Source: Amoeboaphelidium occidentale
Taxonomy: Eukaryota; Aphelidiomycota; Aphelidea
Assembly: GCA_023515795.1 (NCBI GenBank)
Contig: JALGPX010000012.1
Coordinates: 62,001 to 126,000 of the forward strand
Reading direction: 5' to 3'
DNA length: 64,000 nucleotides
Below are positions 23,491-48,398 of this stretch, piece by piece (position 1 is the stretch's first letter; every line of letters starts with the position of its first letter). The position numbers and the translations under genes are program-made. Under the pieces are notes generated by a model. The model did not search any database, was not told where the DNA came from, and saw nothing but the letters and a program-made list of their open reading frames with translations.

Positions 23491-23611
23491 GTTTTTGAAT
23501 ATTGTCGATTAAAATGTCTACTAGTACGAAACCCGTCTAAATAGCCGGAAATTCGCTGTATTTTTGTGCGACTTGACTTTTGATACCATACCCATTGCTG
23601 CCCAGGCCATC

Positions 23612-24257
23612 TTACCTCAAGGTATCCGTGTTCATCGCTTCGGGCGTCGTTGAATCTTGAATTTCAGCTGCAGAATTTTTTTCGTCTTCCTTCTTCTTTC
23701 TCTTAAACTCTTCAGGCGATTCATTGTTATGGTCATTCCTGTACAAAAAAACCTGACGAATATTCAACGCAGCGTTAACATCACGATCCCAAAGGGTCAA
23801 ACAGAAGGAACGTCCATTGACATTCGCTGAGCGATTTGTACACTTCTTGAGACCCCAACACAACTTTCTTCTCCCTGACCTATTCAATTTCATTTTACCA
23901 TTCTTTCCTAATCTTTCGTGCTTACCAGACATCATTACAGCACCATACACTTTTTCTAGCTGACTGTGGCAATTGAAACAAACTTGACTCGTTCTATACT
24001 CAGAAACCAACCGAACTCTACACCTTTTCTTTAGTTCTTTGAACAAATGACGGTTAGGAGTAGGAGCGTGGCCTTTTGACGAACAATCAAACTTTCCAGC
24101 ACCATAAGCAATGATCGTGTTCGGATCACCTTTTGTCAACTCCTTTGCCAACTGATCATATGCTTTCTGTCTGGTTATTCTTGTCTTGAACTTCAGCCTG
24201 TGCCATTTGAGCTGCCAAAAGAAATCGAAAATATCATCACGGATTGAGAAGAAATGT
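23612..24257 (-). pseudogene. Fanzor A copy 1, C-terminal fragment
   Basis: About 215 residues read without a stop from the N at 24258 to TAA at 23612. The sequence starts before the RuvC-II region, contains AYGAGKFDCSSKG, then SEYRTSQVCFNCHSQL (first CxxC of the zinc ribbon with the adjacent Glu), a second Cys pair in LCWGLKKC, and RuvC-III DRDVNAALNIRQ with its catalytic Asp. The tail is Lys/Glu-rich and ends in DSTTPEAMNTDTLR. The RuvC-I part is missing because of the gap. A GTAAGA donor follows the last codons, so a short terminal exon is possible. Confidence 0.7.
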
Positions 24258-24258
24258 N

Positions 24259-24694
24259 TTTTTTTAAAGAATTGAAGAAAAGGTGTAGAGTTCGGTTGGT
24301 TTCTGAGTATAGAACGAGTCAAGTTTGTTTCAATTGCCACAGTCAGTTAGAAAAAGTGTATGGTGCTGTAATGATGTCTGGTAAGCACGAAAGATTAGGA
24401 AAGAATGGTAAAATGAAATTGAATAGGTCAGGGAGAAGAAAGTTGTGTTGGGGTCTCAAGAAGTGTATAAATCACTTAGCGAATGTCAATGGACGTTCCT
24501 TCTGCTTGACCCTTTGGGATCGTGATGTTAACGCTGCGTTGAATATTCGTCAGGTTTTTTTGTACAGGAATGACCATAACAATGAATCGCCTGAAGAGTT
24601 TAAGAGAAAGAAGAAGGAAGACGAAAAAAATTCTGCAGCTGAAATTCAAGATTCAACGACGCCCGAAGCGATGAACACGGATACCTTGAGGTAA
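24259..24694 (+). pseudogene. Fanzor A copy 2, C-terminal fragment
   Basis: This fragment begins directly at an N with a run of T and reads FKELKKRCRVRLVSEYRTS, the zinc ribbon and RuvC-III DRDVNAALNIRQ to a TAA at 24692-24694. It is nearly identical to copy 1 in the opposite orientation, differing for example at KCINHLANV versus KCTNRSANV. It cannot be functional as assembled, because the first half of the nuclease is absent. Confidence 0.7.
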
Positions 24695-24751
24695 GATGGC
24701 CTGGGCAGCAATGGGTATGGTATCAAAAGTCAAGTCGCACAAAAATACAGN

Positions 24752-25201
24752 TGGAAAGTTTGATTGTTCGTCAAAAGGCCACGCTCCTGCTCCTAACCGT
24801 CATTTTTTTTAAAGAATTGAAGAAAAGGTGTAGAGTTCGGTTGGTTTCTGAGTATAGAACGAGTCAAGTTTGTTTCAATTGCCACAGTCAGTTAGAAAAA
24901 GTGTATGGTGCTGTAATGATGTCTGGTAAGCACGAAAGATTAGGAAAGAATGGTAAAATGAAATTGAATAGGTCAGGGAGAAGAAAGTTGTGTTGGGGTC
25001 TCAAGAAGTGTATAAATCACTCAGCGAATGTCAATGGACGTTCCTTCTGCTTGACCCTTTGGGATCGTGATGTTAACGCTGCGTTGAATATTCGTCAGGT
25101 TTTTTTGTACAGGAATGACCATAACAATGAATCGCCTGAAGAGTTTAAGAGAAAGAAGAAGGAAGGCGAAAAAGTTTGTGCAGCTGAAATTCAAGATTCA
25201 A
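24752..25201 (+). pseudogene. Fanzor A copy 3, frameshifted fragment
   Basis: It starts within KFDCSSKGHAP, upstream of the zinc ribbon, then hits a run of eight T at about 24803-24810. Copy 1 has six mixed bases (TTGTTC) between the same flanking codons; here there are seven, so the reading frame shifts by one. Downstream the family sequence continues through RuvC-III to AAEIQDS, where an N at 25202 ends it. The shift may be real or a homopolymer sequencing error. Confidence 0.65.
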
Positions 25202-25202
25202 N

Positions 25203-25497
25203 TAAAATGAAATTGAATAGGTCAGGGAGAAGAAAGTTGTGTTGGGGTCTCAAGAAGTGTACAAATCGCTCAGCGAATGTCAATGGACGTTCCTTTTGCT
25301 TGACCCTTTGGGATCGTGATGTAAATGCTGCGTTGAATATTCGTCAAGTTTTCTTATATAGGAATGCTTACAATGATAAAGCACCTATCGAGTTCAAAAG
25401 AGAGAAAAAGGAAGACGAAGAAGTTCCGGTAGCTGATAATCAAGATTCTACGACGCCTAACGCGATGGACATGGATACTTTGGTGAGTTCGGCTTAG
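25203..25497 (+). pseudogene. Fanzor A copy 4, C-terminal fragment
   Basis: Starts at KMKLNRSGRRKLCWG, inside the zinc ribbon, and keeps DRDVNAALNIRQVFLYRNAY. It then shows a divergent tail (DKAPIEFKREKKEDEEVPV) ending in DMDTLVSSA and TAG at 25495-25497. The tail differences from copies 1-3 show that at least two subtypes of family A exist. A GTGAGT donor overlaps the last codons. Confidence 0.6.
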
Positions 25498-25516
25498 GCA
25501 GCCACGGTTGATTCAN

Positions 25517-25781
25517 AAAGTTGTGTTGGGGTCTCAAGAAGTGTATAAATCACTCAGCGAATGTCAATGGACGTTCCTTCTGCTTGACCCTTTGGGATCG
25601 TGATGTTAACGCTGCGTTGAATATTCGTCAGGTTTTTTTGTACAGGAATGACCATAACAATGAATCGCCTGAAGAGTTTAAGAGAAAGAAAAAGGAAGAC
25701 AAAGAAGTTCCGGTAGCTGATAATCAAGATTCTACGACGCCTAACGCGATGGACATGGATACTTTGGTGAGTTCGGCTTAG
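25517..25781 (+). pseudogene. Fanzor A copy 5, C-terminal fragment with intact 3' tail
   Basis: Begins in LCWGLKKCINHSANV and ends at TAG 25779-25781. The first part matches copies 1-3 (RNDHNNESPEEFKRKKK), while the end matches copy 4 (EVPVADNQDSTTPNAMDMDT), so it looks like a hybrid of the two subtypes, by conversion or misassembly. It runs directly into the conserved non-coding tail with the hairpin at 25839-25854. Confidence 0.65.
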
Positions 25782-25838
25782 GCAGCCACGGTTGATTCAA
25801 GTATCAAAAGTCAAGTCGCACAAGCATACAGCGAATTT

Positions 25839-25854
25839 CCGTCTATTTAGACGG
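25839..25854 (+). other. Perfect hairpin in Fanzor A 3' tail (candidate guide-RNA or terminal structure)
   Basis: CCGTCT-ATTT-AGACGG forms a 6-bp stem with a 4-nt loop, about 60 bp after the last stop of copy 5 and about 15 bp before the shared ACTAGTA border. The inverted copy 1 has the same element at about 23533-23548 with one uncompensated mismatch in the stem. In TnpB and Fanzor systems the guide RNA covers the 3' non-coding end of the element, so this tail is the place to look. Function here is inferred only. Confidence 0.45.
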
Positions 25855-25870
25855 GTTTCGAACTAGTATG

Positions 25871-27080
25871 TACCAAAACGACATAGTAGAATCCGTAAAT
25901 TTCATGGAACTCTATTTTTCACTTAAGAAGCGTTACAGAAGAATGAAATCTTGTTAGTAATCAATATATATGTTTCTTAGTAAAATTTCTTTTGCAAGTA
26001 AATAGGGTTGGTTTCAGCGTAATCACACTAGGCAAGAATTTCTTCTGCAAGCATGTGGAAGTAGAGAGCGGGATAGGACTTTGCAAGAAACAACAAGGCT
26101 TATAATATAGAAGGAGTTCCATTACAAGAACAATCACGCCAAGGGCCTAGTATGTATTAATTCATATCAAGATGAACGACCAGCATGTTTCCACTGTGGC
26201 GTGTACCATGAACATCAACCGCGAAGCGAAACTAAATCCAAGAGCCGATACTGAACCAAAAATTAAGACCGCAAGTCCGGTTGTTTCTACTCCAACAAAC
26301 CTAGTCCTATAATTTGTAGGAAGCATAATATCAACTTGTCTTAAATCAAAAGCCAAGCCCTAGTTTGCTTGCAGCTGAACCCGCTGTTAATGTTCCGGGC
26401 GTTTACCAACTCATCTTTGCTTTTAGTGGATTAAGCAGCGACCAGTACAGTAAAGAACTTGGCTAAATTTCAATAGTGCTGTTTAAAGCGCTCATGTTAC
26501 AAAAACAAACGCTCAATGCTGCGATAGACAATGACGCTAATGGTCTTTGATACTTTCAAAGTACAAGTGCTGAAGAACAGCCGCGCGTAACCACTGCTGA
26601 TGTCTCCTGTTGGAACTCAACACAATATTGAGACACGAGAAGCTTATAATCAGTAGGAATCAACTGTTGTTTCATCAATTAGTAAATAAAGTATATCCTT
26701 GAGAAACCCTGTGATCACAGCGTCGAGAAAGAAAAAGAGGAGAAACAAAGCAATAGAAACGAGTTTAACGAGTGACTATAGAATAAACAAACGAGTGAGG
26801 TACGAACGAGTGTTAAGCAATAAAATTTTCCGTTGCGTGCCATTTGGTTAGATTACCAGGGGGTAACCTAACGGTGCTTAATTGAGAAAACCCAATTATC
26901 GACATCCGTTCNNNNNNNNATTTTCCGTTGCGTGCCATTTGGTTAGATTACCAGGGGTAACCTAACGGTGCTTAATTGAGAAAACCCAATTATCGACATC
27001 CGTTCAAGCTTGCTCTACTTCCCTTGTCCCTACCGTGTGGGCATCACGCCAAATAGTTCTTAAACCACTTGAAACAATCT
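25871..27080. other. Gene-poor stretch between Fanzor A and B
   Basis: No convincing gene. One short plus-strand frame near 26100-26240 encodes a cysteine/histidine-rich piece (DERPACFHCGVYHEH) that could be a decayed zinc-ribbon remnant, but it is not long enough to assign. From 26825 the sequence is the gap-flanking duplicate described separately. Confidence 0.4.
26825..27005. repeat. Duplicated 87-bp structured block around a gap
   Basis: N run 26912-26919. The 87 bp before it (26825-26911) recur after it (26920-27005) with one G fewer. Each copy contains two inverted-repeat hairpins: GTTAG with CTAAC enclosing TTACC with GGTAA, and TAATTG with CAATTA. The duplication is probably an unmerged contig overlap. 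The hairpins lie about 80-250 bp upstream of the Fanzor B coding region and might belong to its left end. Confidence 0.55.
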
Positions 27081-28127
27081 ATGAAGCTTCTGATCTGCGC
27101 GATAACCAGAAGTTTGTTACGCATCGATATTTTTTCAGAGATGAACGGGTTAAGAAGATCTAGGAGGCGCATGAATATGGCATCTTCTATGGATGATGTT
27201 GAAGAAGATGATGAAGATGATGATGAGATTGTTATTGATGTTGATGTTGATGATGAGAGTATTGAGGATCGCAATAATAATGTGGATGATGATTATGTTG
27301 AAGATAATGAGAGCGAAGGAGCTCAAGAGCCGGCAGTTTTTGTTCAGCGAGAGTATGAGAAGATTTCAACTGTCTCCTGTGGCTTACGTGGCCTGGTCAA
27401 GAATAAGAAGTTGCTCCCAGTCGTTCAAGAGGTAGTTGAAAGAATCAGCACAATTCTATTTCCTGGATCAAGGCTCCTCAACTTCTACTTAATTAGGCAG
27501 CTCTCTGAAGGAAGAGACCTTGTGCTGATGACTACTGGGTTGAATGGAAAGTTGAGACATTTCTTTACTGCTTTATTGACTTCTCGCCAAATTAATTATG
27601 ATCAAGATGTTCTTACAGCTGCCGAGGAGTATCGTGCAATGGCAGATGCTCATAATATTGATTTTGGTTCTACTACTGGTATTAATTCTTTGTTAAACAA
27701 TGCTGTTCAAACTTATGAGGTTGAATTAATGAATGGTGTAACAACTACGATTCACGGGTGGATTATCCGCTGGTTAAGTCACATGCTAGAAGTTCACTGT
27801 TCAGTTTGTTTCCGAAATAAGAAAAGAGCGAAAGCTGGAGCAAAGTATATTATGAGTTATCTGGCGTGGCAAGCCAACGAGCGGGCAGACAAACCAGAGT
27901 TTCCATTGTTGCTGGATACGTTTTTGGCAAAGAAAGATGATTTGCGTGCCGTGGTTTTGGCTACTCTACTAACTGCTCGAGTTGAACTCTTTTCCATTTC
28001 ATAAGCTTCTGAGTATTCGCTCTCAAAGGATTACATTAAAGAGAATTGGTATAAGTACTTTCCTCTATTATTTCACATATTGAGTTATTTTAACGAATAT
28101 TCTATTGCTGATGCTCAAGGCAGATCA
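27081..28127 (+). pseudogene. Fanzor B N-terminal part
   Basis: Open from the ATG at 27081 to TAA at 28002-28004, about 307 residues, then open again in the same frame to the N. Residues about 34-75 are a nearly pure Asp/Glu run, then comes a mixed helical domain (YLIRQLSEGRDLVLM; HGWIIRWLSHMLEVH) and a basic patch (RNKKRAKAG). Coding resumes as SEYSLSKDYIKENWYKYFP, so the TAA is either a nonsense change or lies in an intron. A perfect TACTAAC branch motif about 30 nt upstream favours the intron, though the only suitable donor (GTGCCG) is poor. No enzymatic motif lies in this part. Confidence 0.55.
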
Positions 28128-28128
28128 N

Positions 28129-28620
28129 GCGTGCCGTGGTTTTGGCTACTCTACTAACTGCTCTAGTTGAACTCTTTTCCATTTCATAAGCTTCTGAGTA
28201 TTCGCTCTCAAAGGATTACATTAAAGAGAATTGTTATAAGTACTTTCCTCTATTATTTCACATATTGAGTTATTTTAACGAACATTCTATTGCTGATGCT
28301 CAAGGCAGATCACTCGAGAGACGTTGTGGAAGAGGTTGGAGGAGGTTCACCTTGGCTCCCTTGAAAAAGATGAGAAATGGATTCATTTTAGTTGATACAA
28401 CGTCTTTGGGAGAAATTTTGGCTTTTGCTTACGCTCGTGGAAGAAACCGGGTTCCTAAGTCATTTCCAGCAAAATTGGGTATCATTCAGAGGAATCTGAC
28501 AATGTTACGAAACCCAGGAAAGCATTGGAAAGATTTCTTGAAGATTGACAAATTATCAAATTCGTCTAAAACTTTTGGCTTTTCAATTAAGACAGATGGA
28601 GTATCTGCGAGAGTTCATTT
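28129..28620 (+). pseudogene. Fanzor B middle-domain fragment
   Basis: Repeats the end of the previous piece, including the in-frame TAA, then continues through FTLAPLKKMRNGFILVD and AYARGRNRVPKSF to FGFSIKTDGVSARVH. The pattern of a hydrophobic ThrAspGlyValSer strand ahead of RuvC-I is typical of Fanzor proteins. It ends at the N at 28621 just before the RuvC-I region. Confidence 0.55.
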
Positions 28621-28621
28621 N

Positions 28622-29209
28622 TCGAGAGACGTTGTGGAAGAGGTTTGAGGAGGTTCACCTTGGCTCCCTTGAAAAAGATGAGAAATGGATTCATTTTAGT
28701 TGATACAAAGTCTCTGAGACATTTTGGCTTTTGCTTACGCTCGTGGAAGAAACCGGGTTCCTAAGTCATTTCGAGCAAAATTGGGTATCACTCAGAGGAA
28801 TCAGACAATGTTACGAAACCCAGGAAAGTATTGGAAAGATGTATTGAAGATTGACAGGTTATCGAATTCGTCGAAGAAGTTTGGCTTTTCGATTAAGACT
28901 GATGGGGTATCAGTAAGAGTTCATTTTAAGAAAACTTGTTTTACTACTGATTTGGGCAAGGATGGTTTCAAGACTTTTGGAGATAAGGAATACGTGCAAC
29001 TTGATGTTGAGAACAAGAGGGTCGTTGGGCTTGATCCCGGCAGGAAAGACATCTTCTCTTGTTTTGATGGAACAAAAGCGGTTCATTGTTCAAATAAGGA
29101 GTGGCAAGAAATCTCAGGTAACAATTATCAGAAGAAAAAACAGCTTTTTTGGTTAAAGAAGAATCAGTCCGTTAAGAATATAATAGCTGGAATGCCGTCA
29201 TCTAAAGTT
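28622..29209 (+). pseudogene. Fanzor B fragment with RuvC-I, frameshifted
   Basis: Overlaps the previous piece but has a Trp-to-Leu change (GRGLRRF) and, at about 28713, a 2-nt shortening that shifts the frame. After that it reads through FKKTCFTTDLGKDGFKTFG to the RuvC-I motif VVGLDPGRKD with the first catalytic Asp, then NKEWQEISGNNYQKKK and ends at MPSSKV before the N. Confidence 0.6.
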
Positions 29210-29210
29210 N

Positions 29211-30276
29211 AAGAAAACTTGTTATACTACTGATGTGGGGAAAGATGGTTTCAAGACTTTTGGAGATAAGGAATACGTGCAACTTGATGTTGAGAACAAG
29301 AGGGTCGTTGGGCTTGATCCCGGAAGAAAAGACATGTTTTGCTGCCACGACGGCTCCAAAAAGTCTTATCATTGTTCTGGAAAGGTGTTGGAGGTTGGGC
29401 TTTATATGCGCAGTCATATACAGGAACTTGAAGATGTAAGTGGGATTTTATTATTTTTATTGGTAATCTCATTATCCTTAATAGATTGGAGGACGTGATT
29501 GAATGATTGTAACCGTGAATACTCAACAGAAGGAATGGAGAGTTATTTCGGGAGCTAAAAGCTCAAAGAAACAAAGAGATTTGTGGATTTCAAAAAGGGA
29601 CGATATCCAGACTTTAAATTCTGGTATGCCTTCAGCCAAGGTTTGCACTGTCAGAAATTCTCACAATATCTCGGAGTTGTATTGGAAAATCATTCACATT
29701 TGTTTCACTTTTATGGTTCATTGAAGTGGCGTCAACTGAGAAGGAAAACTGACATAAGAAGACAGAAGGCCTACGATGTTTTGTGCAAAAGAATCGCTGG
29801 GGAGAAATTGGATTCCATTGTTGCTTATGGTTCTGCAAAGTTTTCTGCTTCAAGTCGTGGAAGCCCGCCCATCCCAACTACTCGCCTTTACAAGAAGTTA
29901 TTACAGAGGAATGTTTGTGTTCGTTTGGTTTGGGAACATAGGACAAGTGTGGTTTGTTCTGTTTGTCACAACGATTTGCCGAAAGGAAAGAAATGGAGAG
30001 TGAAAATATGCCCTACTTGCAAGATCTACTTGAACAGAGATGTTAATGCAGCGTCAAACATCAGACAGATATTTCTTTTCATGAATGGCAATAATGGACA
30101 AAGACCAATGCAATTTAAAACGTTCAAACAACGAATGTTGGCCAGCAGCGCATCGAATCCTGCAGTACCAAATGACGGTCAGCAAGCTGATGATAGGGGT
30201 GAAGAGAATACGTTATCGGTAAGTCTCGTGTGTATGGATTGATCTTTAGGATATTCCTGCTCAAATTCCTCTATAG
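29211..30276 (+). pseudogene. Fanzor B C-terminal half, frameshifted copy
   Basis: Restarts ahead of RuvC-I (VVGLDPGRKDMFCC), then becomes unreadable over about 29370-29510, where a GTAAGT donor and stop codons occur. The family sequence returns at KEWRVISGAKSSKKQ. At about 29650 one T is missing relative to the second locus (GCACTGTCAG versus GCACTGTTCAG), shifting the frame. The rest reads AYGSAKFSASSRGSP, VWEHRTSVVCSVCHNDL, CPTCKIYLNRDVNAASN and, after a 31-nt intron (30219-30249), a last exon DIPAQIPL with TAG at 30274-30276. Confidence 0.65.
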
Positions 30277-30334
30277 TGCTATCGCTAATACTCATGTTTT
30301 GGAACAAACTTGTAACGAATCAAGGAGGAGATAA
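30250..30334 (+). other. Conserved Fanzor B terminal exon and 3' tail
   Basis: About 85 bp conserved between this copy and those at 48049-48134 and 48277-48362, including the short last exon and about 58 bp after its stop. Conservation between this copy and the other two ends after GGAGATAA. The stretch is a candidate for the element right end and guide-RNA region by analogy with TnpB and Fanzor systems. I found no long perfect hairpin in it. Confidence 0.45.
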
Positions 30335-31647
30335 CTCATTTCCTATCCGTAACTTCACATTAATTCGATTGTAGTTGCAGTTTGGAGAATTTGTGGCAAT
30401 GAAATGTCTACAAATATAGTCATATAATCTCCATGCATCTCCGCCAAGATCGTACTCAGGGGCGTTCTTAGTTGGACAGATGGGATCGTGATCACCAAAA
30501 GACTTACCACCTTCATTCCGATTGAAACCATTCTGCGCCAACTCTTTTGCATAAGTTCCCCACAGCGGATTAACACTAAGCATTTCCAAAGTTGCTTTTA
30601 TGTCGTAAGATTCTGGGTATTTGCTTGTTTCAGTTCTTGGATATGATACGTAACCTTGCATGTACAATCTTTCAGCAACTTGCATTGTATGCTGTGGACT
30701 GTAACCAAGCATTTTGGATCCGATCTTCAACATTTCGACCGTATTTAATGCATTAGGGCGCTGATGAGACTTTTTTCTACAGTTATACTATCTACTGAAG
30801 CACTAGTTATATTCTTTAGCTGCTCTCTGATATCAGCCGCCTTTTTCTTTTCCCATATCCTGCCTCTTTCGGAAGTCAAATTCAGTTGCCCTCCAGCTTT
30901 AATTTCAACAGAAGCTCTAATAGTCCAGAATTTTTTTGGTTCAAAAGAAAGTATTTCATCGTGCCTTCGTACACAAAGCGCGAGAGTCGGAGTTTGGCAT
31001 GGTCCAAACGATAATATGCTACTGTCCATGTTTCCGTATTTACCCTGAAAGTACTTTGTCTGAAATCTAGTGAAAGCACGCCCAATTTTCAAATCCAATT
31101 CCTGCCTAATGTCTACTGCTTTTGCCTCATTCGCATTAGGTGCACCAAGTTTCTGCATTGCGGCATTTATCTCAACGCTCGTAACAGCACTGAACTTTGC
31201 CCTGTAAATATTCTTATTCTTTCCCTTATTTCCTTCTGGCTTGTTCATGTACGGCTTTACAACACTGATAACTTCGAAGCAAATGTTCTCTCCTTCCCTG
31301 TCTGCGTCTAACCAAAGAACAAGATAATCGATTCCCTTACCCTCAACTTGCAGGTGCTTAACAATATGCTGTTTCGGGTTAGATTCTGATTTAAGTATAG
31401 GCGCACTGAATAGGTCCTCAGGATTAACAGCGTTCCAGTTATTATACTCAGCAGGAAAGTCCACAGAAAAGACATGGCCCATTACAGAGGTCACTTTAAA
31501 TTTCGCAGGCTTTCCAAAGAACTTCCCCTCATATTCATGTACATTGCATGCCACAGATCTTCTCGTATTTATTTTTCCCTTAGCGAGGAACTTTGCGATA
31601 CTCTCAGCGAGACTCGGTTTCTCAGCGACCAAAAGCACCGTGATCAT
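30320..31647 (-). CDS. TOP3B: DNA/RNA topoisomerase III-beta, truncated at the 3' end
   Basis: Exons 31647-30796 and 30760-30320 (35-nt intron) give 430 residues, against about 860 in typical TOP3B. The Toprim domain is complete (LLVAEKPSLAESIAKFL; LWLDADREGENICFEV), as are the family blocks HEYEGKFFG and RFQTKYFQGKYG and the active-site tyrosine in GYVSYPRTET. After LRIGNE the homology stops abruptly at 30335 and only a few codons, read from the Fanzor B tail, precede a TGA. The type-specific C-terminal half is missing. The start is taken at MITVLLVAEK; an earlier in-frame TTG is unlikely. Confidence 0.88.
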
Positions 31648-31811
31648 CGTGTAAAGAAGATATGATGCCAACGAGATTAATCAGGCATTTCGTAATTATC
31701 CTCACATGTACAAATTTAACTCATTTGCATCTTAATTGTTGTTCCGGAACTTGGTGATCTGAAGTCTGGCCCTGGTTTGCAAATCACAATATTTTCGACA
31801 GCGACAAGCAG

Positions 31812-32057
31812 ATGGTGTTCTTCAGAAAGATCCTCCCATTTATCAACTTCTCTATTGCCACTTCGGCACTCGCTTTCCAAACGATGGTCTTGTATCCATG
31901 GCACGAACAATTAGAGGAAGACTTCAAGGCGCTGGAGAAATTGCAGCAAGGCACTCTATCGGAATTCCATCAAATGAAACTGAAACGTATGGATGATATT
32001 GATCAGAAAGTTACGGAGTTATTGGAACTTGAAAAGAAGAAGCTCAAAGAGGTGTGA
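31812..32057 (+). CDS. Small single-span membrane protein, unrecognised
   Basis: 81 residues: a short basic start, one hydrophobic segment at about residues 7-27, then LYPWHEQLEEDF and a charged, predicted coiled-coil C-terminus. The YPWH motif after a single N-terminal helix recalls small mitochondrial inner-membrane proteins, but I cannot name the family. It fills the gap between TOP3B and the methyltransferase and ends 28 bp before the convergent gene, so it fits local gene spacing. Confidence 0.5.
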   Translation: MVFFRKILPFINFSIATSALAFQTMVLYPWHEQLEEDFKALEKLQQGTLSEFHQMKLKRMDDIDQKVTELLELEKKKLKEV

Positions 32058-32085
32058 AGTATCACAGAATAGAACATTTATAATC

Positions 32086-32799
32086 TCACTTTCTTCTCCA
32101 AATCGCCAACTGTTCTCTGCCTTTTCTAATTGAAACAGTGCACGAGACTGTTCTTGGTTCCAAGACACATTCAAAATCTTTGCTTAGTAACTCATTATAT
32201 GCTTCTTTTGATACTGCATATGGAGGTCCACCCTCATAATCACCAATAGGAAATACCAACACGATCAGATAACCACCTGGACCCATTAAGTCAGAATACT
32301 TCTCAGCCCATGAGCGACGCAATTCTGGATGAATAGCACAGAAGAATGTGTAATCAAAACACAAATCAAAGGGCTGAGATGTTTTAAATGTGAAGAAATC
32401 CTGTAACAGAAACTCAGCATTTGGGGAAGACTGTCCGTGAATATCTTGACATTTTTTAACAGCCAACTCGCTGATCTCTAATCCAACTGCCTTCTCAGAG
32501 CGCCCTGCTAAGTAAGAAACATCAAATCCTTCACCACATCCCGGAACCAATGAACTTTTGAACTTTAAGCTTCTGATATTTTTAATGACTTCTGCTTCCT
32601 TCTCAGTAAAATCAGACTCTAAAGGAAACGTGGGATCTGTGACAAGTCTTAAAGGTGGTGCAGGTTGGCGCAAGTTCCACGGTGTTAAACCTTCCTCGTA
32701 CAATTTGTTCCACTCCTGTTTATTGGTGTTCTTTGGATCTGCTTTGGCCAGGACCGAGTGGATGGTTTTCGTAGTTGCTGAAACTTCGTTTGTGCTCAT
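32086..32799 (-). CDS. TPMT-family S-adenosylmethionine methyltransferase
   Basis: 237 residues with a class I Rossmann methyltransferase core. Motif I is SSLVPGCGEGFDVSYLA, followed by KAVGLEISELAVKKC and the motif IV region FDLCFDYTFFCAI. The upstream TPWNLRQPAPPL patch is characteristic of the TPMT/halide and thiol methyltransferase (HOL-like) group, which methylates small thiols or halide ions. The substrate cannot be told from sequence. Single exon, 48 bp from the divergent ALG10 start. Confidence 0.8.
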   Translation of the reverse strand: MSTNEVSATTKTIHSVLAKADPKNTNKQEWNKLYEEGLTPWNLRQPAPPLRLVTDPTFPLESDFTEKEAEVIKNIRSLKFKSSLVPGCGEGFDVSYLAGRSEKAVGLEISELAVKKCQDIHGQSSPNAEFLLQDFFTFKTSQPFDLCFDYTFFCAIHPELRRSWAEKYSDLMGPGGYLIVLVFPIGDYEGGPPYAVSKEAYNELLSKDFECVLEPRTVSCTVSIRKGREQLAIWRRK

Positions 32800-32847
32800 T
32801 CACGTTCACTTCTCTAAAATAAGGATTTCTAAGCAGTGTCGATCAGA

Positions 32848-34176
32848 ATGCTTAGCGATCACATCCCGTTAGCGTTGGCCGTTTGTGTTCTTTGCGCTCT
32901 AGTTCGAAATGTTTCATCGGAAATAAATTCGGCTGTTACTGAGCCGTATATGGATGAGCCATTTCATATTGATCAGGCTGAAGCTTATTGCAGAGGGGAT
33001 TTTACATATTGGAACGATAAGATCACTACACCGCCTGGCCTTTACTTTTTCAGTATCGGTTTGAAGTATCTATTTGGGCTTGGATGTGGTCTTGCGGAAT
33101 TGAGGTTTACGAATATTATGTTCCTATTTGGTATAGTTCTGTTGGTCTATTTGATTGTTATAAAGAAGACCAAAGAGAATCACTTAACAGCTGCTCTTCA
33201 TAGTTTCAGTGTGGCATTATTTCCTTTTGTTTTCTTCTTTAGCTTTCTTTATTACACTGATGTGGGTTCTCTGTTCTTTGTGCTGTTGTCGTATTATCTG
33301 AGTTTAGAACGTTGTTTTACACTGGCGGCCTTATCAAGCTCTGTCGCTTGCACTTTCAGGCAGACAAACATTATTTGGGCTTTTTTCGTAGCTGCTTTAT
33401 CTGCAAGGGACTTATTGGAGTCTAAGCTGAAGAAGAAGATAAGTTTCGTGGATCTTGTGCTTGAAGCATTGCAGAATCTTTTTGTGTTGTTGCGGAATCT
33501 CTACGGGTTTATTCTACTTGGTGTGGGATTTTTAATATTTGTGCATGATAATGGTGGAATAGTTCTTGGAGATAAGAGTAACCATCAAGCTGCTGTGCAT
33601 TTGGCGCAATTATTGTATTTCAGTTGCTTCTCTGCATTCTTCTTGCTGCTTGTCACAAACCCTTTAAAATTCCTGACTTCATTGACAAAGTTCAGGAGGA
33701 AAAAAGGGTTTATCAATTTGATAATCGCCTTCATTCTATTGAATTCAATTGCTCTATATATTGCTCACAATTACACAATTGAGCATCCTTTTCTTTTGAG
33801 CGACAACAGGCACTATACGTTTTACATTTGGAAGAACATTTACCGCAGATTCGATCACGCCAAATACTTTCTCGCTCCTGTGTACGCTTCTTGCATCGCT
33901 TATATGGCTGGAGTACTGATTAATTTAGAAGATTCCGTTTTTACCGTAATGTACAGTATCTGTGTTGCTGCAACTTTGATTCCTTCACCTCTATTGGAGT
34001 TCAGATACTTCTTGATGCCTTACATTCTTCTCAGGTTACAACTGGTGAGAGTGAGAAACATACGGCTGATAACAGAAATATTAGCCATGTTTCTCATAAA
34101 CGGCATCACTTTATATGTGTTTATTCATAAACCATTTGTTGACAAGAGTGGTGTTACCCAGAGGTTCATGTGGTAG
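32848..34176 (+). CDS. ALG10: ALG10 alpha-1,2-glucosyltransferase
   Basis: 442 residues, about ten to twelve hydrophobic segments. The signature right after the first helix, EPYMDEPFHIDQAEAYCRG, and then ITTPPGLY match ALG10/Die2. This ER enzyme adds the last glucose to the dolichol-linked oligosaccharide before N-glycan transfer. The C-terminal part keeps LLSDNRHYTFYIWK. Start at the ATG at 32848. Having ALG10 implies that the full glucosylated N-glycan precursor is made. Confidence 0.92.
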   Translation: MLSDHIPLALAVCVLCALVRNVSSEINSAVTEPYMDEPFHIDQAEAYCRGDFTYWNDKITTPPGLYFFSIGLKYLFGLGCGLAELRFTNIMFLFGIVLLVYLIVIKKTKENHLTAALHSFSVALFPFVFFFSFLYYTDVGSLFFVLLSYYLSLERCFTLAALSSSVACTFRQTNIIWAFFVAALSARDLLESKLKKKISFVDLVLEALQNLFVLLRNLYGFILLGVGFLIFVHDNGGIVLGDKSNHQAAVHLAQLLYFSCFSAFFLLLVTNPLKFLTSLTKFRRKKGFINLIIAFILLNSIALYIAHNYTIEHPFLLSDNRHYTFYIWKNIYRRFDHAKYFLAPVYASCIAYMAGVLINLEDSVFTVMYSICVAATLIPSPLLEFRYFLMPYILLRLQLVRVRNIRLITEILAMFLINGITLYVFIHKPFVDKSGVTQRFMW

Positions 34177-34192
34177 TAATGGTTTAAATATA

Positions 34193-37100
34193 TCATTTAT
34201 CTGAAACTTTCAGTTTCATCTGAATGTTCATCGCCATCAACTCGGATGCCAGATATCTGAATACGTAAGGAATAGCTACAACATCAATCATGTCATTCTT
34301 CTTACAGCTATGACAAGTGACGGCAGTTTGTTTTCTGCTAGAAGAAAGAGACGATGTGTCCGCCATCGTACTCAGTATCGACCGGCATCTTGTACAAACA
34401 TGAGCAATAGAGTAATCAGAGCAATTCATCAAACGATCTTGTAAACAGAACGAAGCACCGTGGGCAAGTAAAGAATCACGCTCCATTTCTCCGAAACGGA
34501 TACCACCAGCCCTCTTTCTTCCTTTCACTGGTTGTCTAGTAAGATTATCGACAGGACCAGTTGTTCTGACTTGGTACTTATCAGAAACCATATGTCTCAA
34601 ACGTTGATAAAAGACAACTCCAATGTAAATATCGACTTTCATTTCACATCCATCAATTCCACTGTACATCACTTCGTTTCCATAATAATTGTATCCGGCC
34701 TTCTTTAACTGCCTTCCGAAAAAATCAACAGCAGTGTGTTCTTCCGAAAATTGAAATGGTGTTGCATCTGCACAAATACCATGTAGAGCACCAGCTTTAC
34801 CAGCCATACTCTCAACAAACATACCAATTGTCATACGAGACGGGAAAGCGTGAGGATTAATGATGACATCAGGTACAACTCCTGTCTCCGTAAAAGGCAG
34901 ATCAACAACAGGATACTTTTGAGAACAAACACCTTTCTGGCCGTGTCTAGAAGAGAATTTGTCACCAATAATTGGATTACGAGGAATTCTGAGTTTGATA
35001 CTGATCTTTTGAACAGGCTGGTCTCCGCCATCAGCGCCAATAACTCCGACGTGTTCTACATAAGCATCTTCTAGCCCTTTATACTTAACAACCGTGCATT
35101 CTCCAGTTGTTTCATTAACATAACTGTAATATGGAGTTCCGGTAGTCAAAAGCACTCCAATTTTAGGGAAGCCGTCACGATCTAGAACTCCTTTTCCATG
35201 CTTTTCAACATCAGGACATCCAAAGAAATCTGACACAGGTTCACCTCTTTTCCGTTTCTCCGACAAGTCTATGAACTCGCATTTGTAAATAAGACCGTGA
35301 CCAAACCCCCTTTCATACGCTGACTTGTTAATTATCATGGCGTCTTCCATGTCGTAACCAGTGTAAGAGATAACAGCAACAACAGCGTTCATTCCATTCG
35401 GATAGTTATCAACACCATAATCATCGTTCAAATAAGGACGAACAACAGGAGTTTGAGGTGTCATTAAACGGTACATTTTGTTGTCCGTTCTGTAAGGATA
35501 TGCATGAGCTGGAGAACCCATGGATTGTTTACCCATCTGACACTGGTACATGTTACGAGGAGACTGGTTGAAATCGGAGAACGGTGTCAAGTTTGCAATA
35601 ACGGAAAGCATGTTTGTAGGATAGAATTCCTGATGCGTTGTTACACCAATTTGAATATCTTCTTCTAAACATGCAATATCAAGGTAGATCTGTTCAAATG
35701 AGCCTACCATATCTTTCTTTCCCAGTGCCAAATGCTTGACAGGACGAACAAATCTTGATGGCTGCGAAAACAAATACAACCCAGGAAACTGACCACCATG
35801 TGACAAAGGAACATAACCAATTTCCAATTCAAGTGGAACTTCTTTCGAGCCCATAACTTTAAGTTCTCTCAATTGAAGTGATAACTGATAAGCCAAGTGA
35901 GGAGAACAATATCCAATAATTGTTCCATCCAACAGGACTCTGACCATATTTTTACCGAGGACGCCATTGGATGCACCAGGAATCATCGGCTGCATACCAT
36001 AAGAAACAAGCACTTTGGGAACAGCAGACACATCTAGAGGGTGTGTCATGATTTTGCAGTGATGTGACAAGTGATTCAGCAAACCACACGGAGAACCATC
36101 AGGAGTGTGAACAGGACATAAGAACCCCCAAGATTCTGGAAGCAACTTACGGACAGCAGTTGTTTTTAATTCCGCAAAGAAGGAACCACGATGGATGCTT
36201 CTGAAATGGGAAATGTATCTGTAAAAGTTCAGCTTCTCTGCCACAATTGTATAACCACTAGCTTGTTGTAAATCTAATCCTGTGTTTGATACGATATTTC
36301 CTGTTGCCATAAAATACTCTAGAGCGCGACCTACATTTGAGCCGGCGCTTCTGACTGCTTTCATGAAATTCTTCTTGTCGGTGAAATCTAAGTCCTTATT
36401 CTTTCGCATGTCAATGTTAAGAGCCAAGGCAATTGTATCCAAAAAGTCTTCAAGTTTCTCTTTGATTATCGCTCCTATAAGGAAGCCTCCTAGTAAAACT
36501 TCATGATTTTGTGGAGAATCAGGATTATCAGGAGCGCAACTTCCTGATACTAAAGCATATAATTTCTGCAGCATGAAAATCAACAGATCAAATTTTTCGC
36601 GATTAGTCTTCAAATGAACTAATACGATCTTCTTTAACAAATACTCTCCTACTTCAACATCAGTTTTTGCTGGCGACTGTCTCAAAGCTGGCCTAAACTT
36701 TGATCCCAAGAATGCCAAACACTCTTCTCTGGTGTACAATGCAAAATTCTTGAATTCTCTCAACATAAGTTCAACACGATCTGTAACGAAAGTATTTGAT
36801 TTGTCTTCCAAAACGATAGATTCATAAATTTCCTTGTCTGTTGTCGGTATCAACGCTTTCAAAACCATCACCAAAGGAATCATATACTCTTGTTTGCGAT
36901 GCGAGAAACGGAATGTCACGTTTCCATCTGTAAGATAATGGATCGAGATAGTTTGGGAAGTCTGATCATCCCTAACTGATCTAATGGTAACACCATAAGG
37001 CGAATAAGTTGGTCCACGCTTTTGGAACGAAGGACGTACAATAGCCAAAGGATGATTTCTTCTGGTGACAATCAGCAATCTTATTAGACGTTCAATACCA

Positions 37101-37621
37101 TTGATAATGAAATAGCCACCCCATTCTTCAGCTTCTTCGTGCTTTTTGACCATTTCAGCAGGTGAAAGTGTTTCCAAGTGACAGAGATTCGATTTGATCA
37201 TAATAGGAACGTTGCCTAGCGCCTTATTTTCAATTGTTCCTTCAACACCGTTGATGCTGTACTTAATTTGGCACTTCATCGCACCATCATACGTAATACC
37301 TCTTTCTCTGCATTCTGAAGGAAATACGCGTCGCTCCAAAGCCATAGATGATGTGCTTTGCAGTGATGGCTTTGCAATCTGAACAGATTCTATGCCAAAT
37401 GACAATTTGTTTCCGTGAGAGTCAACCATCTCGACGGGGTCTAAGTGTGCCAAAGCCATGTCTAGAATACCTTTGCCACCATTCATGAAAAGCAACGAAT
37501 TGAATGATTCCAAGTGAGGTGCAATTAGTCGATGCAGTTCAGGATACGCCGTTCCAGCCTTGGACGGTTGTATGGCGCGTTTTCTGAACGCAACGCTATC
37601 AAATTCCGATTCTTTTGCCAT
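34193..37621 (-). CDS. RPA135: RNA polymerase I second-largest subunit
   Basis: 1142 residues, single exon, from the ATG at 37621 (an in-frame TTG three codons upstream is not needed). All RNA polymerase beta-type blocks are present, including RSAGSNVGRALEY, SWGFLCPVHTPDGSPCGLLNHL, YTGYDMEDAMIINKSAYERG, KFSSRHGQKG and, near the end, GGIRFGEMERDSLLAHG. The C-terminal zinc site has Cys pairs CTRC and CHSC, with the Pol I-type ending IPYVFRYLASELMAMNI. The length fits yeast Rpa135 (1203). It transcribes the large rRNA precursor in the nucleolus. Confidence 0.95.
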   Translation of the reverse strand: MAKESEFDSVAFRKRAIQPSKAGTAYPELHRLIAPHLESFNSLLFMNGGKGILDMALAHLDPVEMVDSHGNKLSFGIESVQIAKPSLQSTSSMALERRVFPSECRERGITYDGAMKCQIKYSINGVEGTIENKALGNVPIMIKSNLCHLETLSPAEMVKKHEEAEEWGGYFIINGIERLIRLLIVTRRNHPLAIVRPSFQKRGPTYSPYGVTIRSVRDDQTSQTISIHYLTDGNVTFRFSHRKQEYMIPLVMVLKALIPTTDKEIYESIVLEDKSNTFVTDRVELMLREFKNFALYTREECLAFLGSKFRPALRQSPAKTDVEVGEYLLKKIVLVHLKTNREKFDLLIFMLQKLYALVSGSCAPDNPDSPQNHEVLLGGFLIGAIIKEKLEDFLDTIALALNIDMRKNKDLDFTDKKNFMKAVRSAGSNVGRALEYFMATGNIVSNTGLDLQQASGYTIVAEKLNFYRYISHFRSIHRGSFFAELKTTAVRKLLPESWGFLCPVHTPDGSPCGLLNHLSHHCKIMTHPLDVSAVPKVLVSYGMQPMIPGASNGVLGKNMVRVLLDGTIIGYCSPHLAYQLSLQLRELKVMGSKEVPLELEIGYVPLSHGGQFPGLYLFSQPSRFVRPVKHLALGKKDMVGSFEQIYLDIACLEEDIQIGVTTHQEFYPTNMLSVIANLTPFSDFNQSPRNMYQCQMGKQSMGSPAHAYPYRTDNKMYRLMTPQTPVVRPYLNDDYGVDNYPNGMNAVVAVISYTGYDMEDAMIINKSAYERGFGHGLIYKCEFIDLSEKRKRGEPVSDFFGCPDVEKHGKGVLDRDGFPKIGVLLTTGTPYYSYVNETTGECTVVKYKGLEDAYVEHVGVIGADGGDQPVQKISIKLRIPRNPIIGDKFSSRHGQKGVCSQKYPVVDLPFTETGVVPDVIINPHAFPSRMTIGMFVESMAGKAGALHGICADATPFQFSEEHTAVDFFGRQLKKAGYNYYGNEVMYSGIDGCEMKVDIYIGVVFYQRLRHMVSDKYQVRTTGPVDNLTRQPVKGRKRAGGIRFGEMERDSLLAHGASFCLQDRLMNCSDYSIAHVCTRCRSILSTMADTSSLSSSRKQTAVTCHSCKKNDMIDVVAIPYVFRYLASELMAMNIQMKLKVSDK

Positions 37622-37698
37622 TATGCTCAAAAAATTTGATGCTTGATTCTTTGAGAGATTGCAACCCCTGATAAATCGAAGTCTCTATTCTCTAAAAT

Positions 37699-39204
37699 CT
37701 AGTATTGTGCACGATCTTCTCTAATTACTGAAGTCGGTACAGTGTACTCCTGATAAATAGCCTCGGGACCCAGATCATAGCCTATTCCACTATGCTTCAT
37801 TCCTCCAAACGGCATTGTTGGTGTTGTCAAGTTGTAACAGTTTAACCAAATAGTGCCTACTCGCAGGTTGTTTTCAAATCGGCTAATGTGACTTTGAGAA
37901 TTCGTCCAAATGCCAGCAGCTAAACCATATTCCAGAGAATTAGCTCTGTTAATGGCTTCATCAATGGAACTAAATGGCTTTTGTATAGAAAGAACAGGAC
38001 CAAATATTTCTTCGCACGCAATCTCATGGCTGTCTTCCACGTTGTAAAATATCGTCGGCATAACGTAATACCCAGCTCCTTCTACCTTGCTACCTCCAGT
38101 TAACAATTTAAGGCCATTGGATTTAGCTCTTTCAATATAACCAAGTGTCTTTTCTAACTGTGCCTTGTTTACTAAAGAATTACATCAAATGCCGCTAGAC
38201 TTACTTAGTGGCCCAATTTGTTCATTAGAGTTAAAAGGGTCCTTGAGTACTTTTGTCTGTTCAACAAGTGTCTTGAGTGACTGGATAAACTTATCGTGAA
38301 TGGATTTATGAACCAGTAAACGAGAGCCAGCACAACAGTTTTGACCAGAATTAGTGAAAGCTGCTTGATAAACATCATTTACTGCTTTGGATAAGTCCGC
38401 GTCTGCACAAACAATTATTGCGTTCTTTCCTCCAAGTTCCAGTGTAACTTTCTTGAAGTTTGACGACGCAGATCCCATCAAGACACTTCTTCCTACAGAT
38501 CCAGAACCAGTAAAACTTATCTTATAAATATCATTGTGTTCTACAATAGATTTTCCTACTTCTTTTCCCCCTAATACGACACTGATTACTCCACTGGGAA
38601 GCGAAGTGTTATCTCTAATCAACTGAACCAGTTTCAACACAGATAAAGGCGTATTCTCATGAGGTTTGATCACAGCAGTGTTACCACACGCAAGCAAAGG
38701 TGCAAGCTTCCACGCAGTAAGGAGAAGAGGATAATTATAACTCGTTATTATACCACATACACCTATTGGTTTTCTTATTGAATGACCATAGAAGTTGTCA
38801 CCCATGCTGATAGTCCTCCCATAAATCTTGTCAGCGTAACCTGCGTAGAATCTAAATACCTCCGCAATGTCTGTCATCTCACTTAAAGAGTCAGTAATTG
38901 GTTTTCCAACCTGAATTGTTTCCAGTGCTGCCAATTCTTCTTTGGAATCCTTAATCGCATCTGCAATTCTCAAGAGAATATCTCGTCTCTCTGATCCTTT
39001 CGATTTTAAGCCCCAGACATCTTCTTGTGCTTTCCTGGCTTCTTTGACTGCTTGATCAACTAAATTATTGTCTGCTTCAAAGACTTCAGCGTAAAGCTGC
39101 TCAGTTGCAGGGTTGATCAGTCTCCGAGACGTTCCTGAAGTCACAAACTTATTGCTAACGAAAGAGGATGTGTATTTTATTGCAGTCTCAATGCTTTTCT
39201 TCAT
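37699..39204 (-). CDS. NAD(P)-dependent aldehyde dehydrogenase
   Basis: Exons 39204-38205 and 38171-37699 (33-nt intron) give 490 residues, the usual length. Key motifs: [20 protein letters not shown], the Rossmann [12 protein letters not shown], catalytic Glu in [10 protein letters not shown], nucleophile Cys in GQNCCAGSR and EEIFGPVLS near the end. It resembles ALDH1/ALDH9-type enzymes; the specific aldehyde cannot be assigned. The chosen ATG (39204) lies inside the last codons of QTRT1, giving a 17-bp same-strand overlap; a later start would remove little. Confidence 0.88.
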
Positions 39205-40512
39205 TCTTTGCCTCGATCTCTGAAGTTGTAACAAGACCTTCAGGAAAAACTCCATCAAGCGAAACACCAACTTTGTTCAAAGCGTTCACAGCCCAGACTG
39301 GCACCACTCCGTCAGGGTGCATTCCTTTAACAAAATATCTAATAAATTCCGGAAACTGATCTTTTTTGATGGAGTCTCGAACACGCTTCATCAGTTGCAT
39401 TTGAAACGTGATATTGTGTATAGAAATAAGCGAAGACGAAACAGCTTCTTTTGTGGCAACAGTATGCAGATACGCCCTGGAGTAGGTTTTGCATGTTATA
39501 CAAGGGCAATTACTGTCAATAGGTTTTGTATCATTCTCAAAGCATTTCCGTCTAAGATTTAACGATCCTTCGAAAGTCAAAGCGTTTCCAAACCTAGCTG
39601 TCCTTGTTGGAAATACACAATCAAACATATCAACACCTAATGCAGCGCAAACCACTAAATCTAAAGCGTAACCGACTCCCATACAATATCGCGGCTTGTT
39701 TTTGGGCAAATGATCTGTTGAAACGTCTACCATTCTCCAAAACTGGTCCTTTTCCTCGCCACCAGATAATCCACCTATAGCGTAACCAGGAGTATCCCGT
39801 TTAATCATTTCTTCCAGGCACCTCTTCCTCAGATTTACATCTAAACCTCCTTGAATAATCGCAAACAGGTTCTGATCGTGAGGTCTTTTATGAGCAGCAA
39901 TGCATCTGTCTAACCATCTTACTGATCTTTCCATCGCTTCCTCGACACGTGGCCCTGTAGTTAGAGAAGAAACGACATCATCCAATTGCATAATTATGTC
40001 AGCGCCAATAGTATTTTGCAAGTCTATGGACTTTTCTGGTGTTAACAACATGAGACTTCCGTCATGAGGAGACTGAAACTGAACACCTTCCTCTTTAACT
40101 TCAGATAATTTCACGAGAGAAACCATTTGGAATCCACCACTGTCAGTGAGCAAACCGTGTTTCCAGTTTGAGAATTTATGCAGTCCACCAATTTGATCAA
40201 GTATCTGTTGCCCTGGCCGTAAACCCTTCATGTAAATAAAATATCCAGTGATCATGTATAATTACCAAGTGATAAGTGTTTCCTAGTATCATATTACATC
40301 CCGTGGCTTCCATTTGAGAAGTTGTCATGCCTTTCATTGTTCCTTGTGTCCCAACTGGCATGAACACTGGAGTATCTAAACCAATTAGTTGATTCTAAAT
40401 GATATAAATGGCGCGCTTTACCGACTGTGGCATGCGGTAAATGCAAACGACTAACGCGTGCCTTTGTGGTGGAGCACTGCGCAACAATCTCAAACTGCAA
40501 AGCTGGTTTCAT
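39188..40512 (-). CDS. QTRT1: Queuine tRNA-ribosyltransferase catalytic subunit
   Basis: Exons 40512-40422, 40375-40266 and 40225-39188 (introns 46 and 40 nt) give 412 residues, close to human QTRT1 (403). Exon 2 supplies [17 protein letters not shown] and [11 protein letters not shown]. Exon 3 carries [13 protein letters not shown] with the first catalytic Asp, [19 protein letters not shown] and the [12 protein letters not shown] block. The zinc site is CPCITC and a downstream His. The enzyme swaps guanine-34 for queuine in tRNAs with GUN anticodons. A QTRT2 partner is not in this window. Confidence 0.93.
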
Positions 40513-40629
40513 GTTTTAAGGACAAAGTATCAAAAGAAAAATATTTCCGAGATCTTCTTATTGTGAGCAATTTATTAAACCCGTATTGAGCAGCATCAGA
40601 GGTTTGTTGTTGCTGTTATAGACTCTGAT

Positions 40630-43106: not shown

Positions 43107-43189
43107 AACTTTGTCTGTGGGTGTCAAGACGTGAAAACGTAGAGTACAAAAATAGACCATATCGTCGGCCAGTTGCTTTATTTCTGCTT

Positions 43190-46922: not shown

Positions 46923-47584
46923 TTATTGGTAATCTCATTATCCTTAATAGATTGGAGGACGTGATTGAATGATTGTAACCGTGAATACTCAACAAAAGGA
47001 ATGGAGAGTTATTTCGGGAGCTAAAAGCTCAAAGAAACAAAGAGATTTGTGGATTTCAAAAAGGGACGATATCCAGACTTTAAATTCTGGTATGCCTTCA
47101 GCCAAGGTTTGCACTGTTCAGAAATTCTCACAATATCTCGGAGTTGTATTGGAAAATCATTCACGTTTGTTTCACTTTTATGGTTCATTGAAGTGGCGTC
47201 AACTGAGAAGGAAAACTGACATAAGAAGACAGAAGGCCTACGATGTTTTGTGCAAAAGAATCGCTGGGGAGAAATTGGATTCCATTGTTGCTTATGGTTC
47301 TGCAAAGTTTTCTGCTTCAAGTCGTGGAAGCCCGCCCATCCCAACTACTCGCCTTTACAAGAAGTTATTACAGAGGAAGGTTTGTGTTCGTTTGGTTTGG
47401 GAGCATAGAACTAGTGTGGTTTGTTCTGTTTGTCACAACGATTTGCCGAAAGGAAAGAAATGGAGAGTGAAAATATGCCCTACTTGCAAGATCTACTTGA
47501 ACAGAGATGTTAATGCAGCGTCAAACATCAGACAGATATTTCTTTTCATGAATGGCAATAATGGACAAAGACCAATGCAATTTA
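46923..47584 (+). pseudogene. Fanzor B copy 2, longest intact C-terminal half
   Basis: From ATG 46969 the frame is open through KEWRVISGAKSSKKQ, SQYLGVVLENHSRLFHFYG, IVAYGSAKFSASSRGSP, VWEHRTSVVCSVCHNDL and CPTCKIYLNRDVNAASN to the N at 47585. It shows that the frame break in the first locus near 29650 is a one-base loss. RuvC-I is not included, so this is still a fragment. The bases before 46969 match the non-coding stretch at 29459-29503. Confidence 0.65.
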
Positions 47585-47585
47585 N

Positions 47586-48165
47586 AAAAGAATCGCCGGT
47601 GAGAAATTGGATTCCATTGTTGCTTATGGTTCTGCAAAGTTTTCTGCTTCAAGTCGTGGAAACCCGCCCATCCCAACTACTCGCCTTTACAAGAAACTAT
47701 TAGAGAAGAAGGTTTGCGTTCGTTTGGTTTGGGAACATAGGACAAGTGTGGTTTGTTCTGTTTGTCGCAACGATTTGCCTAACGGAAAGAAATGGAGAGT
47801 GAAAATATGCCCTAGTTGCAAGATCTATTGGAACAGAGATGTTAATGCAGCGTCGAACATCAGGCAGATATTTCTTTTCATGAATGGCAATAATGGACAA
47901 AGACCAATGCAATTTAAAACGTTCAAACAACGAATGTTGGCCAGCAGCGCATCGAATCCTGCAATACCAAATGACGGTCAATAAGCTGAGGATATGGGTG
48001 AAAAGAATACGTTCTCGGTAAGTCTCGTGTTTATGGATTGATCTTTAGGATATTCCTGCTCAAATTCCTCTTTAGTGCTATCGCTAATGCTCATGTTTTG
48101 GAACAAATTTGTATCGAATCAAGGGAGGAGATAAGAAAATAGATCTAACGCGACAGGAATTTTAG
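47586..48165 (+). pseudogene. Fanzor B copy 3, C-terminal fragment with premature stop
   Basis: Starts in KRIAGEKLDSIVAYG and keeps zinc ribbon (VCSVCRNDL, CPSCKIYW) and RuvC-III (NRDVNAASNIRQ). A CAA-to-TAA change at 47982-47984 stops translation before the terminal exon; the other copies have CAA. The 31-nt intron (48018-48048), last exon and tail are otherwise conserved up to the N at 48166. Confidence 0.65.
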
Positions 48166-48166
48166 N

Positions 48167-48398
48167 GGCCAGCAGCGCATCGAATCCTGCAATACCAAAT
48201 GACGGTCAACAAGCTGAGGATAGGGGTGAAGAGAATACATTCTCGGTAAGTCTCGTGTGTATGGATTGACCTTTAGGATATTCCTGCTCAAATTCCTCTG
48301 TAGTGCTATCGCTAATACTCATGTTTTGGAACAAATTTGTATCGAATCAAGGGAGGAGATAAGAAAATAGATCTAACGCGACAGGAATTTTAGAAACC
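48167..48398 (+). pseudogene. Fanzor B copy 4, 3' end only
   Basis: Begins in ASSASNPAIPNDGQQ, with the CAA codon intact. It contains the 31-nt intron 48246-48276, the last exon ending TAG at 48301-48303, and the conserved tail to about 48362. Its end and the next 36 bp match copy 3 to the latter's N, so copies 3 and 4 could be alleles or divergent reads of one locus. Confidence 0.6.

Follow-up and report, generated by a model that had tools for sequence, protein, structure and literature searches.

Fanzor RNA comes from the right end of the element with the flanking sequence as guide, and the element may be helped to copy itself when the uninterrupted site is cut, according to the available parts of two sources (PMC10432273, PMC10711439). 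The Spu-1/SpuFz1 system of Spizellomyces punctatus has a Fanzor gene and a conserved right end, and the accessible text of PMC10432273 mentions it with inverted repeats and describes ghost loci. Fanzor1 genes carried in DNA transposons (CRe, DFa-2 and others) stand beside transposase-type ends in the available part of PMC3627910, where piggyBac receives one mention in another context. The Fanzor1 transposon of ascovirus SfAV is a Fanzor-only element, for which the accessible portion of PMC10711439 reports a duplicated target and clear inverted repeats. The target of piggyBac is given as TTAA in the part of PMC7351741 at hand.

The locus described here belongs to Amoeboaphelidium occidentale, an aphelid that is a parasitoid of algae and a relative of fungi. 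The window, the whole stretch of 64,000 nucleotides that was analysed, is C96:62001-126000 (contigs are designated by C and a number; positions without a contig are those of the window), and genome-wide counts refer to 204 contigs with 11.31 Mb. A literature search found no paper covering both Fanzor and Amoeboaphelidium. The Fanzor B element of the window resembles Spu-1/SpuFz1 in the combination of a Fanzor gene with a conserved right end, and copies reduced to the right end resemble the ghost loci of PMC10432273 as far as its available text describes them; unlike Spu-1, the ends in A. occidentale share a dyad that is, by eye, direct. Compared with the available descriptions of CRe, DFa-2 and others (PMC3627910), the likeness lies in a Fanzor beside transposase-type ends and in a surplus of right ends (10) over left ends (4 hits of a pattern differing in length from that used for right ends), whereas no transposase is shown inside Fanzor B and the likeness to a piggyBac-like end is one-sided. 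As in SfAV, the element appears to be Fanzor-only and its right-end terminal repeat would contribute to the RNA scaffold, the guide lying farther out, but neither the inverted repeats nor the target duplication reported in the available part of PMC10711439 was seen for Fanzor B. A neighbouring element on C84 shares with piggyBac-like transposons (PF13843) the transposase domain and matching ends; in contrast to the target given in the accessible part of PMC7351741, there is no TTAA at its flank facing the TOP3B piece on C84, and the left end of Fanzor B is without such a repeat. Coordinates are collected in Table 1.

Table 1. Features of the interrupted TOP3B locus and of the Fanzor B copies beside it
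Feature	Position	Strand	Remarks
Fanzor B right terminus (R)	30297..30334	+	dyad plus ...GAATCAAGGAGGAGATAA
Predicted guide segment (TOP3B sequence)	30335..30354	+	predicted from its position next to R, by analogy with the available parts of PMC10432273 and PMC10711439
Fanzor B coding sequence, 3' part	29583..30242	+	Cas12f1-like TNB zinc ribbon PF07282, E 2.3e-10
Fanzor B part in one N-free stretch with TOP3B	29211..30334	+	
Rest of Fanzor B in the scaffold	25857..29210	+	pieced over joins at 26912-26919, 28128, 28621 and 29210
Fanzor B left-end sequence	~25857-25886	+	
Second Fanzor B copy	46923..48362	+	98.8% identical over 665 bases; part of the LTR-like piece plus right end
143-bp TGTTG...CAACA repeat, solo-LTR-like	29386..29528	+	nested in the Fanzor B copy
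TOP3B N-terminal part	30335..31647	-	Toprim and first part of Topoisom_bac, including the SYPRTET stretch; cut at 30335
TOP3B reading-frame change	30768..30780	-	profile positions continuous across it while the frame shifts
TOP3B C-half	C190:11855-13129	-	rest of Topoisom_bac and TOP3B zinc ribbon; at scaffold end
Candidate TOP3B middle piece	C84:5881-6003, 123 bp		between Fanzor B left end (C84:5880) and piggyBac-like end (C84:6004)

A reading made earlier from the letters of the window (the sequence-only reading) had held that TOP3B is cut exactly at the right end of a Fanzor B copy and lacks about half of the protein, by an insertion in the opposite orientation or by contigs joined through the repeat. 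The cut is exact: homology ends at 30335 directly at the right end, with 30334 the last base of the terminus ...TTTGTACCGAATCAAGGAGGAGATAA, and this junction sits 1.1 kb inside an N-free stretch (29211-46921). The N-terminal part has its first Met at 31647 and matches the human TOP3B chain 9c9w_A up to residue 439. The gene was identified as TOP3B by the presence of Toprim and Topoisom_bac domains and by a best match to TOP3B rather than TOP3A, a 133-residue piece scoring 153 bits against the TOP3B chain and 86 bits against that of TOP3A. The frame of the N-terminal part changes once, near 30772, either through a lesion or perhaps through an error of sequencing; an intron was judged unlikely because the profile positions continue there without a gap.

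The right end at 30334 is a true element terminus. A 23-base right-end pattern matched 9 places in the searched genome with at most 3 mismatches, 8 of them with 0-1, and the reversed control pattern matched none. Two further right ends with a one-base insertion, at 48134 and 48362 of the window, have one common flank. Altogether 10 good right ends, that at 30334 included, have 9 distinct flanks, and a diverged one lies on C125; one of the 10, at C78:7969, ends in GATAT instead of GATAA. The left-end pattern gave 4 matches in the genome, of which 2 follow an end of Fanzor family A, and apart from C84 there is one other clean left flank only, on C78. The left and right ends of Fanzor B share, by eye, a direct and not an inverted dyad motif; since the left end matches directly, the idea that the right end forms half of a terminal inverted repeat was rejected. 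Inspection by eye showed no target-site duplication, neither for the C78 copy nor for the two gaps in TOP3B.

The zinc ribbon PF07282 was found in the window copy (Table 1) and in the copies on C190 (E 1.4e-9) and C177 (E 7.2e-10). The C177 copy matched SpuFz1 (8gkh) with E 3.5e-6 over 153 residues, a relation to Fanzor1, and this was its only match to a solved structure at E ≤1; the window fragment alone gave only weak TnpB-like matches, the best with E 0.0022. A. occidentale is a rich Fanzor source: PF07282 had 90 matches at E ≤0.001 in 11.3 Mb (about 8 per Mb; 84 over the curated cut-off), a lower bound in which split or twice-assembled copies are also counted. A search for Fanzor found only two proteins, both of A. 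occidentale.

The 143-bp repeat nested in the Fanzor B copy, intron-like inside, looks like a solo LTR. Near-full matches occur at 9 other places; the flanks on C169 (two) and C124 are common, those on C99 and C177 have the left flank in common, and the others differ. By eye, 5-bp duplications are present at C99 (AACAT) and C40 (ATGCG) and were not seen at C78, C145 and C189. A second Fanzor family (A) occupies 23519-25868 of the window as an inverted, tails-out pair with the right end ...TTTCGTACTAGT. The copy ending at 25868 continues into the left end of element B, and a similar A-to-B junction is present at C64:7722.

The missing half of TOP3B, for which the sequence-only reading had proposed a search of the assembly, was located on C190, where homology resumes at residue 485; about half of the protein is absent from the window, as that reading had claimed. 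The C-half is open over 425 codons from the element terminus, contains the TOP3B-type C-terminal zinc ribbon PF23546 (E 6.4e-21), and is 100% identical to A. occidentale MP638_000777 over 81% of the query. It starts directly after a Fanzor right end whose last base is C190:13132. Upstream of this terminus is the end of the coding sequence of another, diverged Fanzor (D), 71% identical to the window copy over 210 coding bases and 92% identical over the last 62 bases of the tail; the scaffold terminates within Fanzor D. With a full TOP3B profile the N-part ends at position 378 and the C-part begins at 416, and approximately 45 residues (439 to 485) are unaccounted for between them.

A candidate for these residues was discovered by reading the flanks of element left ends. 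This piece on C84 reads NEQGISAGFTEI...SEVQVLN (40 codons), and its match in a local TOP3B profile covers positions 34-69, the N-part ending at 27 and the C-part beginning at 63. The match is weak: in a search of 7603 peptides from the examined loci it had E 0.37, or 0.94 as part of a shorter locus that overlaps, and a topoisomerase on C149, both TOP3B parts and one slightly better, unrelated C120 peptide precede it. It was likewise weak with another set of homologues (E 0.67), and the full-length TOP3B profile did not list it at E 1. The overlap of 7 local-profile positions with the C-part also counts against the assignment. The stretch is nevertheless accepted as the TOP3B middle, well supported if not proved, because of its position at a left end, its fit to the gap and the in-frame closure described below. 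Each of the three pieces, N, middle and C, was found a single time in the 11.3 Mb searched. Topoisom_bac had 6 matches in this sequence, of which the remaining 3 are on C149.

Every inner edge of the TOP3B pieces falls on an element end (30334, C84:5880, C84:6004 and C190:13132), and all four junctions lie within N-free stretches. The first gap, between N-part and middle, has the right end (R) on the N side and the left end (L) on the middle side, ends of one element family. An antisense insertion of Fanzor B is supported, since one insertion would give just this arrangement, a right end against the N-half and a left end against the piece that begins at C84:5881. By our own comparison with homologues, roughly 10-15 bp of coding sequence would be missing here (for example, 12 residues precede GF in P0122 versus 7 here), and no duplication was seen. 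The second gap, between middle and C-half, is bounded by TTATCTCTTACTTGATT at C84:6004 and the Fanzor D right end GAGATAA on C190. With the ends taken as TTATCTC/GAGATAA it rejoins in frame (VQVLN-A-KEGETSPPDYL) with nothing lost or duplicated, whereas stops or a wrong frame result when the ends are displaced (-1, 1 or 2 bases). The target site, of which the sequence-only reading had expected a direct view, is clean at the second gap and not at the first, with its unaccounted bases. The insertion in the opposite orientation proposed by that reading is supported by the ends flanking the first gap, but the missing half lies behind another Fanzor, with the middle on C84.

The ends bordering the TOP3B pieces, two right ends, a left end and a piggyBac-like end, call for at least two insertions. 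We consider it probable, at roughly two in three, that TOP3B was broken not once but by two or more insertions, some 100 bp from each other, with the pieces on three scaffolds. The first interruption would follow the codon equivalent to E439 and consist of an antisense Fanzor B with R toward the N-half and L toward the middle. The second would lie 35-40 codons further and consist of mobile DNA extending from the piggyBac-like end to Fanzor D, the right end of which would face the C-half. Repeats that could not be assembled would have left the pieces of TOP3B on C96 (the window), C84 and C190, with everything to the left of 29211 joined on within repeats. The gene is presumably non-functional. 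Several observations count against this reading: the middle piece is weak by sequence and overlaps the C-part in the profile, the Fanzor copies on the two sides of the first gap differ, bases of TOP3B seem to be missing there, neither gap is spanned by one sequence among the loci examined, and the pieces are little decayed, as seen in the long open frame of the C-half.

The little-decayed pieces are also compatible with real insertions in a species where an uninterrupted allele or strain type exists. This reading overlaps with that of at least two insertions, the odds of the two not being exclusive, and we regard it as possible, if on the doubtful side. At four joins in the window the divergence of the overlapping ends is only 0.7-1.6%, which would suit two alleles, compared with 5-13% at other joins; against it, no second version of any TOP3B piece was present in the sequence searched, which is an incomplete genome. 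In the accessible part of PMC10608142, A. protococcarum is described as distant and the genus Amoeboaphelidium as polyphyletic, and therefore no empty site from a near strain is at hand. The sequence-only reading had proposed to look for an empty site in other strains; a search for one in a close relative with an 843-residue query yielded none, there being no other aphelid among the named ones of the best 120 of 3940 matches (7980 candidates scored).

An intact TOP3B with contigs misjoined through Fanzor repeats is unlikely. Between 24258 and 29210 there are 8 N joins (7 of a single N and one of 8), all within Fanzor A or B sequence, as a misjoin would have it. The sides of 6 of the 8 are direct duplicates, 87-99% alike, and those of the other 2 are related to further copies, one in inverted orientation. 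The mosaic identity between Fanzor copies and the low decay of the TOP3B pieces point in the same direction, as do 747 of 951 published scaffolds (about 2.2 Mb) outside the sequence searched, if the assembly is the same as that of 13.56 Mb in the table of PMC10608142, as given in its available part. On the other hand, the four junctions are N-free and on element ends, and a misjoin would hardly be expected to break a single gene on four edges, each time at an element end. The right end moreover has 9 distinct flanks (for the left end there is just one further clean flank, and for the piggyBac-like end a single occurrence), and no uninterrupted TOP3B was found in the 11.3 Mb searched. The joining of contigs through the repeat, the other alternative of the sequence-only reading, is partly right: the sequence left of 29211 is a chain of such joins, and its link to TOP3B is doubtful. 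In addition, the C84 Fanzor copy does not carry the 143-bp LTR-like repeat, shares 85.6% identity with the window copy across 29530-30132, and has no recognisable right end; since the two copies cover the same part of the element and differ, the first gap is not spanned by one assembled element. That the insertions recombined with dispersed copies, so that the N, middle and C pieces truly lie on different chromosomes beside chimeric elements, is quite improbable: the copies on the two sides of the first gap are different and mosaic and many related copies are available (the 90 zinc-ribbon matches at E ≤0.001), but a single insertion would leave only one right and one left end, so that at least two are required anyway by the ends present at TOP3B, and repeats that fail to assemble give the same picture.

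Contig ends duplicated around short runs of N were observed in the window at 1467-1759, 12645-12921, 27944-28312 and other places, 98-99% alike at the three named, which looks like the scaffolding of overlapping contigs that were not merged.

The element bounding the middle piece on C84 contains a piggyBac-like transposase, DDE_Tnp_1_7 (PF13843), with one stop in the match, and has matching ends across a join. The end beside the middle piece is identical to the Fanzor right end at 15 of 17 positions. It was the only non-Fanzor match at ≤2 mismatches among 365,700 positions on both strands of the examined loci, a scan in which L047 and L051 were left out as contained in others and some overlap remains. 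A longer form of this end was found once in the searched genome. No TTAA target duplication was found for the C84 element, the flank at C84:6003 being ...TTTTGAATG (one copy only). Fanzor B itself does not have the inverted repeats at both ends of a piggyBac-like element, only the right end showing the resemblance. At about position 2927 of C84 two contigs are joined through the piggyBac-like element, the parts differing by 2%, and the first part continues into transposase-like sequence with an HTH domain. A second piggyBac-like transposase fragment lies at a contig end (C32:14132-14416) and has no DNA match to the C84 element.

By analogy with described Fanzor systems, both right ends would take TOP3B sequence as guide: in the window the segment listed next to R (30335-30354, plus strand), and on C190 the bases with which the C-part begins. 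Any TOP3B allele without an interruption would then be cut and converted. The predicted folds of the right ends are only slightly better than those of shuffled sequences (z -0.6 to -1.8 for 5 copies folded). No Rfam match reached the gathering score between 29400 and 30500, and a sub-gathering hit to a plastid intron was dismissed. A joint reading, in which the Fanzors move with piggyBac-like ends, the second interruption is composite, the guides come from the broken gene and two sites home on TOP3B, is speculative and improbable as a whole. If true, the Fanzor right end and the piggyBac-like end would be versions of one terminal repeat, and the second interruption would carry a piggyBac-like transposase on one side and Fanzor D on the other. 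Both insertions would have spread by cutting uninterrupted TOP3B, a natural case of two-site homing in a housekeeping gene.

Mobile elements in genes and Fanzor-bearing elements are already known; what is unusual here is the well-defined target gene. Insertion sites of Fanzors are useful in that what lies past the right end is the presumed guide, and here the target is an identified gene with a known protein structure, both edges of which can be read against the protein family. The proposed homing, with a guide matching the uninterrupted allele, becomes testable at TOP3B. The survey of right-end flanks comprised 11 ends (10 good and 1 diverged), and an open frame of at least 150 codons touches the right end in 4 of the 9 distinct flanks (TOP3B N-part, TOP3B C-part, C177 and C99). 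Neither of the frames on C177 and C99 had a Pfam match. That on C177 (~6888-7489) runs for 200 codons into the right end in the orientation seen for TOP3B, is by eye of a multi-spanning membrane type, and is possibly a second broken gene. That on C99 (3790-6786), also of membrane type by eye, extends over at least 999 codons up to a Fanzor right end. In the copies at C99 (~3730-3788) and C110 (1-74) the dyad of the right end is present as a tandem duplicate.
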